Shown here in pieces: positions 26,784-31,970 of a DNA stretch of 49,489 bases. Position 1 is the first letter of the stretch; every line of letters starts with the position of its first letter. Position numbers and translations under genes: made by a program. The notes beneath the pieces were generated by a model, which was not told the DNA's origin, made no database searches, and saw only the letters and a program-made list of their open reading frames with translations. Source of the stretch: Methanosuratincolales archaeon (lineage in GTDB: Archaea > Thermoproteota > Methanomethylicia > Methanomethylicales > Methanomethylicaceae); assembly GCA_014361445.1 (NCBI GenBank), contig JACIVQ010000004.1:1-49489 (forward strand), given 5' to 3'.

Positions 26784-27437
26784 ATGTCCTCTCTTGAAAC
26801 TGCTGATCTCTTAATCCCCCTTGAAGTTTACCTAGCTGCGGGGATACACATAGGGACTCATGTAAAGACAAATGATATGCGTCCTTTTATTTACAGAGTT
26901 AGACCTGATGGTCTATATGTGCTTGATGTTAGGAAGACCGACGAAAGGTTGCGCATCGCCTCAAAATTTATTGCTAGGTTTAAAGGCGAGAAGGTCTATG
27001 CGGTCTCCGCAAGGCAATATGGGTTCAAGCCTGTGGAAAAATTCGCCTCCTTGATAGGCGGCAAGGCTCTAACTGGAAGGTTCATACCTGGGACTTTCAC
27101 AAACCCGAAACTCCCAACCTATGTGGAGCCTGAACTTTTGGTAGTAGCCGACCCAAGAGCCGACTGGCAAGCCATCCTGGAGTCTGCCGAGGTCGGCATT
27201 CCTGTTGTGGGGTTCTGCGACACAGATAACAGATCTCAGCTGATAGATCTCGTAATCCCCATCAACAATAAGGGGAGAAAGTCACTGGCTTTGGCTTATT
27301 GGCTACTCACGAGGCAGGTTCTTAGAGAGCGCGGCGAGCTGGCGCCCACTGCAGAGTTGCCCGCGACAATAGAAGACTTTGAGTCTAAAGTACTTGTAGC
27401 AGAGGAGGAGTACGGAGGATACGAGGTTGAAGGATAG
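26784..27437 (+). CDS. rps2: Small ribosomal subunit protein S2
   Basis: A 217-residue archaeal S2 (eukaryotic SA). It has [60 protein letters not shown] and [20 protein letters not shown]. It overlaps the MEMO1 gene by 11 bases. Confidence 0.97.
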
Positions 27438-28275
27438 GAGACCTTCAGTAGCTGGGTCTTTTTATGAAAGTTCGGCAGATGCCATAAGGAACCAAATGAT
27501 ATGGTGTTTTCTCCACAGGATCGGTCCGAGATCGCTCCCTACTGGTATCGAGTCCACTGAAAGGCGTATACTGGCGCTCGTCTCCCCTCATGCCGGGTAC
27601 ATCTACTCTGGTCCAGTGGCTGCCCATGGCTACTACCAACTCTCAAAAGAGCCGGTACCTGAGGTTATAGTTATAATAGGCCCAAACCACACGGGCATGG
27701 GTGCTGGCATATCTGTTTGGGGAGAAGGGACGTGGAGCACCCCTTTGGGGAGGGTTCCTGTGGATGCAGACATTGCAGAGGATCTCGCCAATAAGGGCAT
27801 AGTCGAGATAGACCAAGAGGCCCACCTGTATGAACACTCCATAGAAGTTCAACTTCCTTTCCTTCAATTCATATATCAGAACAAAGAGTTCAAGATACTT
27901 CCTATATGCATGATGCTCCAAGACTACATGACATCTCTTGAGCTCGGAAACGCTCTTGCCGAATCTCTCAAAGGAAAGTCTTCCCTAATAGTGGCCAGCA
28001 CAGACTTCTCTCACTATGTCCCCTATTCAGAGGCCTACAGGAAAGATTCCTTGGTCAGCGAATGCATAGTAAAAATGGACGCAAAAGCCCTGAGCGAGAC
28101 CGTTATAAGGGAGAACGTGAGCATGTGCGGTCCAGGTCCAGTGATGGCCACGATTGTGGCAGCGAAAAGACTGGGCGCAAAAGAGTGCAGGAAACTCTGC
28201 TACGCAACCTCTGGCGATACGTGCGGCTCAAAGGACGAAGTCGTCGGTTATGGATCCTACATAATGGTCCTTTAG
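27427..28275 (+). CDS. MEMO1 family protein
   Basis: A 282-residue homologue of human MEMO1, related to class III extradiol dioxygenases. The expected His/Asp/Cys set is present: [56 protein letters not shown] and CGPGPV near the end. Human MEMO1 binds copper and iron; the archaeal function is not settled. It regularly sits between S2 and the mevalonate kinase gene in archaea, as here. TTG at 27427 gives [14 protein letters not shown], the standard start. Confidence 0.93.
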
Positions 28276-28348: not shown

Positions 28349-29173
28349 ATGGAAAACATAAAATTGAGCATTCCTTTTTCACTACCGCTCTTAGGAGAAT
28401 CATTTATAGACGTTGGTAACCCTGTATTATTCTCAAACATCAACTTCTTCACAAAGGTTGATGTAACCATCAGCAAATTATCAGCAGCTCATGTACCACT
28501 GTCCTCTTCTTCCCTTAAGAGGCTGGTCGAAAATCATTTGAACTCAATCGGCAATACATTCGCTTTTCAAGTAACCCCTCCAGGCAATGACTATCTGACA
28601 CTAACTTCAGCACTCTACATAACAGACTCAGAATCTCTTGAAGACTCTGCTCCCGCCTTACTAAGCAGGCTTAGCGGAAGGCCGCTCATGACGATGGTCA
28701 GATCGCTTTCGGCTCTGTCTGGGGGCTTTGTAGTTTGCAGGAAGGGAGAGGGTCTAGTTTCTCTGAATGGCAACCCTGACGCCTCAGTTCTGCTCAGAAC
28801 AAAAGCCAGAAGAAAGTCTTTGAGCGGCACCATCGGTAGGTTTCATGAGACCTTCCCGGATCTCTCTCAGCCACTATGGCACACCATGGGTCATATTGTA
28901 ATAGAAGGCGGCAAAGCAATAAAGGAAAATAACGCAAAAAAGCTCGGCTACCTGATGATCCTTGAATCCTCGATCGGCTGTGCCATCGGGCTAATAAAAC
29001 CAAAAGACCTCGCCAGGCTCTCCCAGATAAAGACAGCCTATGGTGCTAAGATCTTCTCTTTCGGAGACTTGATGGGAGACCTTATATTGTCCCCGAGGGA
29101 AACCTCACCATGGGGCGAATATCAAAAGTTTTATTTTACAACAACGGGGGTGACCGAAGTTCACGAAAGTTGA
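28349..29173 (+). CDS. Degenerate mevalonate kinase homologue (GHMP fold, active site lost)
   Basis: A 274-residue protein that aligns with archaeal mevalonate kinases along its length. LPLLGESFIDVGNPVL stands for the usual LFGEHAVVYG region. LSGGFVVCRKG (124-134) stands for the FGGVV strand. HETFPDLSQPLWHTMGHIV (166-184) and YGAKIFSFGDLMGD (231-244) follow. Yet the family's P-loop GLGSSAA is absent, the catalytic SPTD aspartate region is LMTMVRSLSAL, and the C-terminal GAGGGGC has become SFGDLMGD. It occupies the mevalonate kinase place between memo and ipk. It is probably a pseudoenzyme or has changed substrate. The ORF is intact, so it is presumably expressed. Confidence 0.75.
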   Translation: MENIKLSIPFSLPLLGESFIDVGNPVLFSNINFFTKVDVTISKLSAAHVPLSSSSLKRLVENHLNSIGNTFAFQVTPPGNDYLTLTSALYITDSESLEDSAPALLSRLSGRPLMTMVRSLSALSGGFVVCRKGEGLVSLNGNPDASVLLRTKARRKSLSGTIGRFHETFPDLSQPLWHTMGHIVIEGGKAIKENNAKKLGYLMILESSIGCAIGLIKPKDLARLSQIKTAYGAKIFSFGDLMGDLILSPRETSPWGEYQKFYFTTTGVTEVHES

Positions 29174-29927
29174 GTTCGTCATAAAACTCGGTGGAAGCGC
29201 CATAACAAATAAGAAACAGCCATTCGCCCCAAACTTAGAGGTTATTAAAAACATTTCCCTCGAACTCTCCCAGATCTCTAACAGGCCGCCTTTGATTTTG
29301 GTTTATGGTGGCGGATCCTTCGGACATTACGTTGCAAGAAAATACATCGACAAAGGATTGATAACCGACGCCAAAGGGGTCGCTGAGATTCACTCCGCGA
29401 TGTTCTCTCTGACCAAAATCCTAACTGATCAGTTTCTCCAGCACGGCCTCCCCATCTTCGCGATAAATTCGTCTTCCTCCTTTGTTTTAAAGGACGGCGA
29501 TCTGCAAGATGCTTTTTATGAACCCTTTGAGCTATCCTTAGAACGCGGTCTTATCCCTGTGGTAGGTGGTGATGTGGTCTTTGATTCCTCGTCGGGCGTC
29601 CGGATACTATCAGGAGACAGAATAGCCTCACTGCTCGCCAAAACTTTTCAAGCAAGGGTTTTGGCCTTTGGTACTGATGTTGATGGGATCATATTGAAGG
29701 GATCAACAATCCCCAGGATTAGGGCAAAAGAGATTGGAGAGATTTTGGATCACATTGCGCAAACCCAAGAGGATGTTACTGGGGGGATGGTTGGGAAGCT
29801 CCAGGAGATCGCCTCCTACCTGCTCGAGGGTGGGAAGTTCGCCATAATCTTTAATATAACCCGCCCCGGTCAACTTACTAGACTCCTGTCGGGCAAGGAG
29901 GTATTAGGGACAAATTTTGAGAGTTGA
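29163..29927 (+). CDS. ipk: Isopentenyl phosphate kinase, probable ACG start
   Basis: An amino-acid-kinase-fold enzyme (isopentenyl phosphate + ATP to IPP) of about 254 residues. It has VIKLGGSAITNKK at the N-terminus, VYGGGSFGHYVA with the IPK-specific histidine, VVGGDVVFDSS, FGTDVDGI and DVTGGMVGKL. The frame is closed by TGA at 29151-29153. Between there and the conserved KLGGSAIT there is no ATG, GTG or TTG. ACG at 29163 would give MKVEFVIKLGGS-like spacing and lies nine bases after GGGGGTGA. It is the likeliest start, overlapping the previous gene by 11 bases. A sequencing error or +1 frameshift is the alternative. Confidence 0.88.
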   Translation, partial: TKVEFVIKLGGSAITNKKQPFAPNLEVIKNISLELSQISNRPPLILVYGGGSFGHYVARKYIDKGLITDAKGVAEIHSAMFSLTKILTDQFLQHGLPIFAINSSSSFVLKDGDLQDAFYEPFELSLERGLIPVVGGDVVFDSSSGVRILSGDRIASLLAKTFQARVLAFGTDVDGIILKGSTIPRIRAKEIGEILDHIAQTQEDVTGGMVGKLQEIASYLLEGGKFAIIFNITRPGQLTRLLSGKEVLGTNFES

Positions 29928-31024
29928 TTGCGTTGATATCTGATCGAAAACTATCTCATATTTTGATATGCAGGGATTTGGACGTCTCGTTCAAAAAGGG
30001 AACGCACTTTGACGACGTAGACCTGATCCACTGCGCGCTTCCAGAACTTAATTTAGAAGAGATTGACCTTTCAACAAAACTCTTCGGGAAGAAAATCTCA
30101 GCCCCGATTATAATCTCATCAATGACGGGGGGTCATCCCGAGACCAAAAAGATCAATGAACGCCTTGCAAAGGCAGCCAACAAGCTGGACATAGGGATCT
30201 GTGTGGGCAGTCAGCGTGCAGCTCTGGAAAACCATAGTCTAAGAGATACCTTTAGAGTTGTTCGCGAAATTTCAAAAGATCTGCTGGTCATTGCCAACCT
30301 AGGTGCTGCTCAACTCCTCTCACCCAAAGCCAAAGAATACGCAGAGGAAGCAATCTCTATGATAGATGCCGATGCCTTAGCCATCCATCTCAACCCGCTC
30401 CAGGAACTTGTTCAACCCGGTGGCGACGTCAGATTCAGAGGGATAATCGGTGCTCTCTCAGACCTTGCTAAGTCACTCAATAAGCCGCTTATAGTAAAAG
30501 AGATTGGGTGCGGGATCTCTAGAGAGGTGGCCCAAGAGATTACTAGGGCTGGAGCATCTGCAATAGATGTTGCCGGCGCTGGGGGTACAAGCTGGGCCGC
30601 TGTTGAATTTTACAACTCTAAGCAGAATGGCGAGATCCAAAAATCAGAGGTTGCCGAGACCTTCTGGAACTGGGGCATCCCAACCGCTATGAGCCTCTGC
30701 GAGGTCCTCTCACTTAAGCCAAAGTTGAAAGTGATCTCTTCGGGTGGTGTCCAGAACGGTATCCATGTAGCAAAGTCGATCGCTCTAGGAGCAGATCTAG
30801 CAGGCATAGCACGACCTCTGCTTTTACCTGCATTCTCGGGCGACGAGGCTATCGTTGCACGTCTGAACCGCATAATCACAGAGCTCAAAACGACTCTAAT
30901 GCTAGTGGGCTGCCGAAATCTGGACCAGCTGAAGTCTGCTCCACTCGTCATAAAAGGCGATCTCCTCAACTGGATCCTACAGAGAGGTCTGGAGGTGAAA
31001 GGGGTTGATAGAAGAAAAAATTAG
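29924..31024 (+). CDS. fni: Type 2 isopentenyl-diphosphate isomerase
   Basis: A 366-residue FMN/NADPH-dependent IDI-2 that converts IPP to DMAPP. It has RKLSHILICRDLDV, ISAPIIISSMTGGHPETKKI, VGSQRAALE, the Asn/Gln/Glu ligand segment LAIHLNPLQELVQPGGD, VKEIGCGISREVA, and the flavin-phosphate loop VAGAGGTSWAAVE. TTG 29924 overlaps the IPK stop by four bases, so the two enzymes are coupled. Confidence 0.96.
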   Translation: MIALISDRKLSHILICRDLDVSFKKGTHFDDVDLIHCALPELNLEEIDLSTKLFGKKISAPIIISSMTGGHPETKKINERLAKAANKLDIGICVGSQRAALENHSLRDTFRVVREISKDLLVIANLGAAQLLSPKAKEYAEEAISMIDADALAIHLNPLQELVQPGGDVRFRGIIGALSDLAKSLNKPLIVKEIGCGISREVAQEITRAGASAIDVAGAGGTSWAAVEFYNSKQNGEIQKSEVAETFWNWGIPTAMSLCEVLSLKPKLKVISSGGVQNGIHVAKSIALGADLAGIARPLLLPAFSGDEAIVARLNRIITELKTTLMLVGCRNLDQLKSAPLVIKGDLLNWILQRGLEVKGVDRRKN

Positions 31025-31970
31025 GCAAGTTGCTTCTCTCATCGACCCGCTCATAAGATCCGCCCTGCATGGAAGCGATAACTTACACAAGGCTGCCCTG
31101 CACCTTCCTAGCCAGGGCGGTAAAAGGATGCGCGCCTTCCTCGTTGTAAAATCTTGCGAACTGGCTGGCGGCGACATCAAATCCGCCCTCCCTGCTGCCG
31201 CAGCCATTGAAGTGCTCCACAACTTCACCCTCATACACGACGACATCATGGATGGCGACCTCTTGAGAAGGGGTGTACCTACCGTTCACACGCTTTGGGG
31301 GGTGCCTATGGGAATACTCGCAGGAGATCTGCTTTTTGCTAAAGCCTTCAACATTCTCCTCTCTGCTAATGTGGACTCGGAAAGGCTGAGGCGATCGGCC
31401 CAGATCCTCTCAGAGTCTGCCATCAGCCTCTCAGAAGGTCAGAGCATGGATATGGACTTCGAATCGAAACTCGATGTGTCTGAGGAGGATTACCTATTAA
31501 TGGTCAGCAAAAAAACCGCCTCCCTTTTCGAGGCAAGCGCAGAGATCGGTGCCACAATAGGGGGAGGAGAACCAGGTCTAGTATCACTTCTGGGCGAGTA
31601 CGGACGTAACCTGGGTATAGGGTTCCAGATCTTTGACGACTACCTAGGGCTGACCTCCAAAGAAGAGGTCTTGGGTAAACCCATAGGAAACGACATAAGA
31701 GAGGGCAAGAAGACTTTAATTGTTATCAGATGCCTGAACTCGCCGCTCAGGGAAAGAATTCTCCCACTCCTTGGAAAGAAATATGCTTCCGATGAAGAAC
31801 TAGCCGCATTAGTAGATGCCATTCGGCAAGAGGGCATAGACGATTATGTACTTGATAAGGCGAACTTTCATATAGCCCTCGCCCTTAAGGCACTTTCCCC
31901 TCTGCCAGACTCACCAACAAAGCAAGATCTCGTCGAGTTGGCAAAGTTTGCAATTTCCAGAACAAAATAG
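31005..31970 (+). CDS. idsA: Geranylgeranyl (polyprenyl) diphosphate synthase
   Basis: A 321-residue trans-prenyltransferase. The first Asp-rich motif is LIHDDIMDGDLLRRG and the second is FQIFDDYLGLTS. GGKRMRAFLV binds the IPP side. It makes the C20 (or longer) isoprenoid precursor of archaeal lipids. It overlaps fni by 20 bases. RNase J, which often lies between fni and this gene in archaea, is absent. Confidence 0.95.
   Translation: MIEEKIRQVASLIDPLIRSALHGSDNLHKAALHLPSQGGKRMRAFLVVKSCELAGGDIKSALPAAAAIEVLHNFTLIHDDIMDGDLLRRGVPTVHTLWGVPMGILAGDLLFAKAFNILLSANVDSERLRRSAQILSESAISLSEGQSMDMDFESKLDVSEEDYLLMVSKKTASLFEASAEIGATIGGGEPGLVSLLGEYGRNLGIGFQIFDDYLGLTSKEEVLGKPIGNDIREGKKTLIVIRCLNSPLRERILPLLGKKYASDEELAALVDAIRQEGIDDYVLDKANFHIALALKALSPLPDSPTKQDLVELAKFAISRTK

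Follow-up and report, generated by a model that had tools for sequence, protein, structure and literature searches.

The yeast protein Gal3p derives from galactokinase. XOL-1 of C. elegans is an inactive protein of the GHMP fold that does not bind ATP in vitro, and Gal3p has been proposed as a parallel to it (PMC11349215). Both are GHMP folds turned into regulatory proteins, as is proposed below for an archaeal protein that we call X; the likeness is one of kind. Unlike X, XOL-1 and Gal3p are eukaryotic transcriptional or developmental regulators, are not known to derive from a mevalonate kinase (MVK) and do not lie in an isoprenoid operon. ForT (PDB 6yqq; PMC8183095) shares with X a GHMP fold without the classical kinase reaction. 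It is, however, an active PRPP-using enzyme of nucleoside antibiotic synthesis, and X shows no sign of such chemistry. Like X, MEMO/MJ0403 is a conserved neighbour without an assigned role in the archaeal mevalonate operon; it belongs to an unrelated protein family and showed no activity with phosphomevalonate (PMC3857490). Canonical archaeal MVK (TIGR00549/NF003036; PDB 4hac, 6mde and 8teb) resembles X in predicted fold, end-to-end homology, locus and gene order. It carries an ATP loop, a catalytic Asp, a substrate Lys and His and a third, Gly-rich loop, whereas X has none of these, is ∼50 residues shorter and occurs in a genome that also encodes a genuine MVK. Inactive GHMP-fold proteins are already a known kind, as XOL-1 and Gal3p illustrate; the X family itself is new. 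The literature covered here, in which subscription papers are under-represented, holds no report of an MVK-derived pseudoenzyme, of an MVK in the Methanomethylicia lineage, of the X family or of the Sulfolobus neighbour gene. Archaeal orthologue databases may hold the family as an uncharacterised cluster.

X is encoded in a stretch of 49,489 nucleotides from a Methanosuratincolales archaeon, which is called the window here. Open reading frames, with Pfam and NCBIfam models for memo, ipk and fni, give the gene order rps2-memo-X-ipk-fni-idsA-gltX (Table 1). An earlier, sequence-only reading of this DNA had described the order memo-X-ipk-fni and an intact frame for X, and both descriptions are correct. 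Annotation by operon position would name X mevalonate kinase, wrongly. The X protein matched no family in a Pfam search, and its scores against the NCBIfam models of MVK fell below the curated thresholds: the match to NF003036 was weak and C-terminal (32.3 bits, cut-off 403), and that to TIGR00549 reached 15.1 bits (cut-off 163). MVKs headed the matches when X was used to search PDB sequences (8teb, E 1.7e-4). The closest named relatives of X are found in metagenome assemblies of Candidatus Methanomethyliaceae/Methanomethylicota (Verstraetearchaeota), at 89% identity or less. An Rfam search of the window returned no match.

Table 1. Features of the X locus in window coordinates; indented rows in the gene for X are named by residue.
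Feature	Position	Strand	Evidence or remark
rps2 (ribosomal protein uS2), conserved upstream neighbour	26784..27437	+	ORF; syntenic in relatives
memo (MEMO1 family, AmmeMemoRadiSam protein B)	27427..28275	+	PF01875 E 2e-81; TIGR04336 302.7 bits
X, very probable MVK-derived pseudoenzyme, 274 aa	28349..29173	+	Intact ORF with ATG start; profile, AlphaFold2, Foldseek
X residues 9-25 (PFSLPLLGESFIDVGNP), counterpart of the MVK substrate segment PxK...GEH...P	28373..28423	+	Retains Gly and Glu, lacks Lys and His
X residues 76-83, site of the missing ATP-binding GLGSSAA loop	28574..28597	+	Asp81 invariant in the family
X Arg118, at the position of the MVK catalytic Asp	28700..28702	+	R in 18/18 family X, D in 29/29 MVKs
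X RKGEG (residues 131-135), X-family signature	28739..28753	+	All 25 Methanomethylicia X share the R and E
X SFGDLMGD, replacing the Gly-rich GAGGGG loop of GHMP kinases	29057..29080	+	Residue-level alignment
ipk (isopentenyl phosphate kinase)	29154..29927	+	NF040647 169.8 bits, cut-off 120
fni (type 2 isopentenyl-diphosphate isomerase)	29924..31024	+	TIGR02151 409 bits
idsA-like prenyl diphosphate synthase, end of the cluster's isoprenoid part	31005..31970	+	ORF and sequence; named by inspection

The similarity to MVK over the whole length of X, claimed in the sequence-only reading, is real and detectable by profiles only. The X-family profile aligned end to end, over 249 columns, with a profile of locus MVKs, by which we mean the canonical MVKs standing at the memo-?-ipk position in related families (hhalign, E 1.5e-21). 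It matched a second MVK type at E 7.4e-10, and control profiles of the shikimate, homoserine and pantoate kinases encoded in the window genome, Memo, IPK and Fni at E 0.005 or worse. The AlphaFold2 model of X (pLDDT 91.3, pTM 0.88) predicts an MVK fold: the top seven Foldseek matches were archaeal MVKs, with 8teb, 4hac and 6mde among them, at E values of 1.6e-13 to 7e-13 and TM scores of 0.64–0.70. An MVK fold is also predicted (pLDDT 87.9) for a divergent protein at the memo-ipk position of another family (f6). X and the locus MVKs of its class have in common an RxGEG hairpin and a GHL helix. We considered whether X arose by duplication of the second MVK; the profile scores favour descent from the locus-MVK type. 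A tree of X and the MVKs, with long branches and the root drawn inside X, does not place X firmly among the MVKs and leaves the branching unsettled.

We aligned 25 X-type proteins with 29 MVKs. Eighteen of the X-type sequences come from the window's family, the others of that family being 33–79% identical to the window protein; one more is from the same order and six are from another family of the class. The residue losses are computed, and the functional roles of the MVK motif positions are assumed from general knowledge of GHMP kinases. In motif 1, the substrate Lys (K10) is replaced by S, T or P and the His of GEH (H17) by A, S, P, T or F, the 18 family members having A, S, P or T there. 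The Glu of GEH is kept in all 18 family members and replaced by Gln in f6. Around these losses, P9, F10, P13, G16, E17 and P25 are invariant in the 18 relatives. The ATP loop GLGSSAA (motif 2) is absent from all 25 sequences, the Mg/ATP Glu (E146) is lost, and the catalytic Asp (D157) has become Arg in all 18 family sequences; the two remaining families have L or V/T at that position. Variable residues stand in place of GAGGGG (motif 3). The missing loop, the replaced Asp segment and the conversion of the C-terminal Gly-rich motif in the window had all been noted from the sequence, and each holds at the level of single residues.

Kinase motifs that are present at shifted positions were looked for by residue alignment and none was found. 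The column table rules them out, as does the lack of an acid at the catalytic Asp position in all 24 Thermoprotei-type homologues checked. In those homologues GEH has become G-[VIL]-P, and the Arg of RKGEG is retained. Other features that X keeps are RxGEG, a GG ahead of the hairpin and a single Lys of the C-terminal domain; 27 columns, Arg118 included, are invariant among the 18 family sequences at identities down to 33%. The retained GE and RxGEG residues could serve some other chemistry. As an MVK relative, X is very probably catalytically dead.

The sequence-only reading had offered that another kinase makes mevalonate phosphate, and a search of the genome supports this. A canonical MVK with all motifs is encoded on another contig (G000:C78:38457-39464; TIGR00549 259.5 bits, cut-off 163), so X is dispensable for the mevalonate kinase reaction. 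The window genome, which is 89.9% complete, encodes four proteins above the Pfam GHMP cut-off: this complete MVK and three others that by sequence and neighbours are the shikimate, homoserine and pantoate kinases. AcnX, the family to which the archaeal pathway's phosphomevalonate dehydratase belongs, was searched for and found at C23:34604-35755. With AcnX present, the pathway needs the MVK product, and the second MVK must therefore supply it. In the class, one canonical MVK was present in each genome of 90% completeness or more. Elsewhere in the phylum, the second MVK type (GLGTSAA, ASxMD) has a scattered occurrence (families f30, f31, f36, f45, f53 and f60), either by transfer or by old duplication. 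One relative (G012) encodes an additional GHMP kinase-like protein of 368 aa with a galactokinase-like start (L080 1083-2189).

X is not a local oddity, since homologues occur in at least two classes. The X profile, run against 349 genomes of the phylum at E 1e-18, recovered MVKs and no X beyond the window's own family, which indicates that the X family diverges fast. Two more Methanomethylicia families have homologues at the memo-ipk position: the f2 homologue gave a weak match (E 7e-8), and in f6 an ORF of 269–280 aa between memo and ipk matches X at a profile E value of 3.6e-10 and locus MVK at 3.6e-8. Families f31 and f53, picked as families of the phylum with the second MVK type, have an ORF of 258–279 aa between memo and ipk. 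Searches from these proteins gave matches in many families of another class (f20, f24, f27, f53, f62, f63, f64 and f67 included), nearly always directly 3′ of memo and 5′ of ipk. The combined set of 23 homologues gave E 8e-15 against X, 1.5e-11 against locus MVK and 4e-9 against the f6 protein, and the f31 set matched these 23 homologues at E 6e-23. Six of the homologues were tested against Pfam and matched no family. One family, f27, is probably Sulfolobaceae because the Fni and uS2 of its genomes are closest to PDB entries from Sulfolobus shibatae and S. acidocaldarius. In Saccharolobus islandicus, where IPK is SiRe_1929 (PMC10465181), X would be expected as its neighbour. Judged from sequence, X is an old family that extends over at least two classes and several families of Thermoproteota.

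The occupant of the locus varies among families. A canonical MVK stands at memo-?-ipk in f4, f8, f9, f10, f12, f13, f15, f16, f19, f22, f25 and f56, and X was seen in none of these 12. Where X stands at the locus, MVK lies elsewhere in the families tested (f1, f2, f6, f20, f24, f31 and f53). Neither is found at the locus in f60, where ipk follows memo directly. Among families with the second MVK type, there are further loci with neither MVK nor X after memo: L169 (G342), L170-L172 (G209, G113 and G204) and L177-L178 (f30). In f18 (G048, L227 2528-4251), the gene immediately preceding ipk encodes a prenyl diphosphate synthase and takes the place of memo-X. The f43 locus reads rps2-ORF-ipk, the ORF being a probable X, and has no memo. 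One Sulfolobaceae-like genome of f27 (G301, L223 4276-4941) has a tightly packed memo-X-fni with ipk gone from the cluster, and f63 has memo-X without ipk or fni nearby. These last two loci show that IPK is not an obligatory neighbour of X, and they weaken the idea of an obligatory X-IPK link.

X had also been described as tightly coupled to ipk, and this is right, with a qualification. We examined 17 other loci of the family, and in each the X and ipk frames overlap, by 8–20 nt, with ipk starting at TTG, ATG or GTG; in relatives, a TTG or ATG start of ipk is located inside the end of X. In the window, the ipk frame is likewise open within the 3′ end of X, and the conserved IPK protein runs from 29187. 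The ipk frame near the conserved N terminus (29154-29290) contains no ATG, GTG or TTG in the window, and the same is true of one relative (G001), which implies a rarer start codon or another translation route. The qualification is that in the window species no ATG, GTG or TTG start of ipk lies at the overlap. The link to ipk is usual and not obligatory, given the two loci without it. Locus MVKs overlap ipk as X does. The overlap is therefore inherited and says little about a new function.

We propose that X is an inactive MVK paralogue, a GHMP-fold pseudoenzyme left at the ancestral MVK locus. A second canonical MVK would have taken over the mevalonate kinase reaction, and the dead copy would have been kept. 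Since X has no ATP site and the genome encodes a genuine MVK, binding and not catalysis is the most likely mode of action of X. It is probably a regulatory or scaffolding protein of the first isoprenoid steps that touches IPK and/or the active MVK, and translation of X and ipk is probably coupled, which would yield matched amounts. We put the probability that X acts by binding, regulating or scaffolding the pathway kinases, at roughly 55%. Such a role fits where X is encoded and its overlap with ipk; against a strictly IPK-bound subunit stand the loci that have no ipk.

Next in rank is a sensor role comparable to that of Gal3p, in which X would detect mevalonate, phosphomevalonate or a prenyl diphosphate as a ligand and relay the signal to MVK or IPK. 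Within the family, the best conserved stretches of X include part of the former substrate segment (PxxxxGE...P), and feedback inhibition of MVK is known in other organisms, as the titles of PDB 2r3v and 2r42 indicate. Yet no X keeps the Lys or the His of the mevalonate site, and the Thermoprotei type has lost the Glu too, so that a sensor deserves consideration as a minority view. A kinase with a new substrate, the other option of the sequence-only reading, is unlikely because no ATP-binding motif remains in X. The broader form of this idea is that X catalyses a reaction on a new substrate or with a new phosphate donor, by way of residues that differ from those of GHMP kinases (Glu17, Asp81, Arg118, Arg131, Glu134, His178 and His182); it draws on the invariance of charged residues in the 18 X sequences. 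It also has precedent, as proteins of the GHMP fold have taken on chemistry other than that of kinases and the C-glycoside synthase ForT is among the Foldseek matches (PMC8183095). All three nucleotide-binding elements are nonetheless missing from X, and much of the charged set is lost in the Thermoprotei-type homologues, where GEH is G-[VIL]-P; we consider such an enzyme improbable. Slightly more doubtful still is a role for X as an RNA-binding protein that controls how the operon of ribosomal-protein and isoprenoid genes is translated. X sits directly in the rps2 cluster, and RNA or DNA binding has been proposed for the inactive XOL-1 (PMC11349215), but nothing in the sequence of X supports this, and its constant genomic company includes isoprenoid genes.

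The sequence-only reading also held that X has not simply decayed, and selection, invariant residues and wide distribution all bear this out. In eleven species pairs dN/dS of X was 0.09–0.21 (0.10–0.22 for ipk), values that are approximate because dS is high in several pairs; those of X are mostly somewhat above those of memo and fni, and all lie far from 1. Each family member in which the sequence upstream of ipk is assembled has X, and the three members without a match are incomplete or reach a contig end at the site. In G001, which matches Ca. Methanomethylicota WYZ-LMO10 (L008, L115), a one-base deletion splits X near codon 107; this may be an error of the metagenome assembly. A decaying remnant of a displaced MVK, kept because the operon is tight, would account for that deletion and for X ranking last or nearly last in conservation among the genes of the cluster when family members are compared, but the dN/dS values, the residues invariant across family-level divergence, the presence of X in many families of two classes and the possibly erroneous nature of the lone frameshift make it very improbable, and local decay is in the main refuted by the dN/dS values and the distribution.

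Every archaeal membrane lipid is built from isoprenoid precursors, and control of the pathway in archaea is poorly known. X presents a case of old displacement of a core enzyme with the dead copy retained. Since the X family is conserved across a large part of Thermoproteota, it probably has an undescribed, non-catalytic job in the synthesis of membrane-lipid precursors. More speculatively, the family traced here as one may be a Thermoproteota-wide non-catalytic subunit that assembles with IPK and/or MVK and controls the entry of carbon into archaeal membrane lipids, a proposal we hold only tentatively. If true, these kinases would work as pseudokinase-regulated complexes. The presence of the X family in genetically tractable Sulfolobus-like archaea would offer a direct handle on the control of this pathway.
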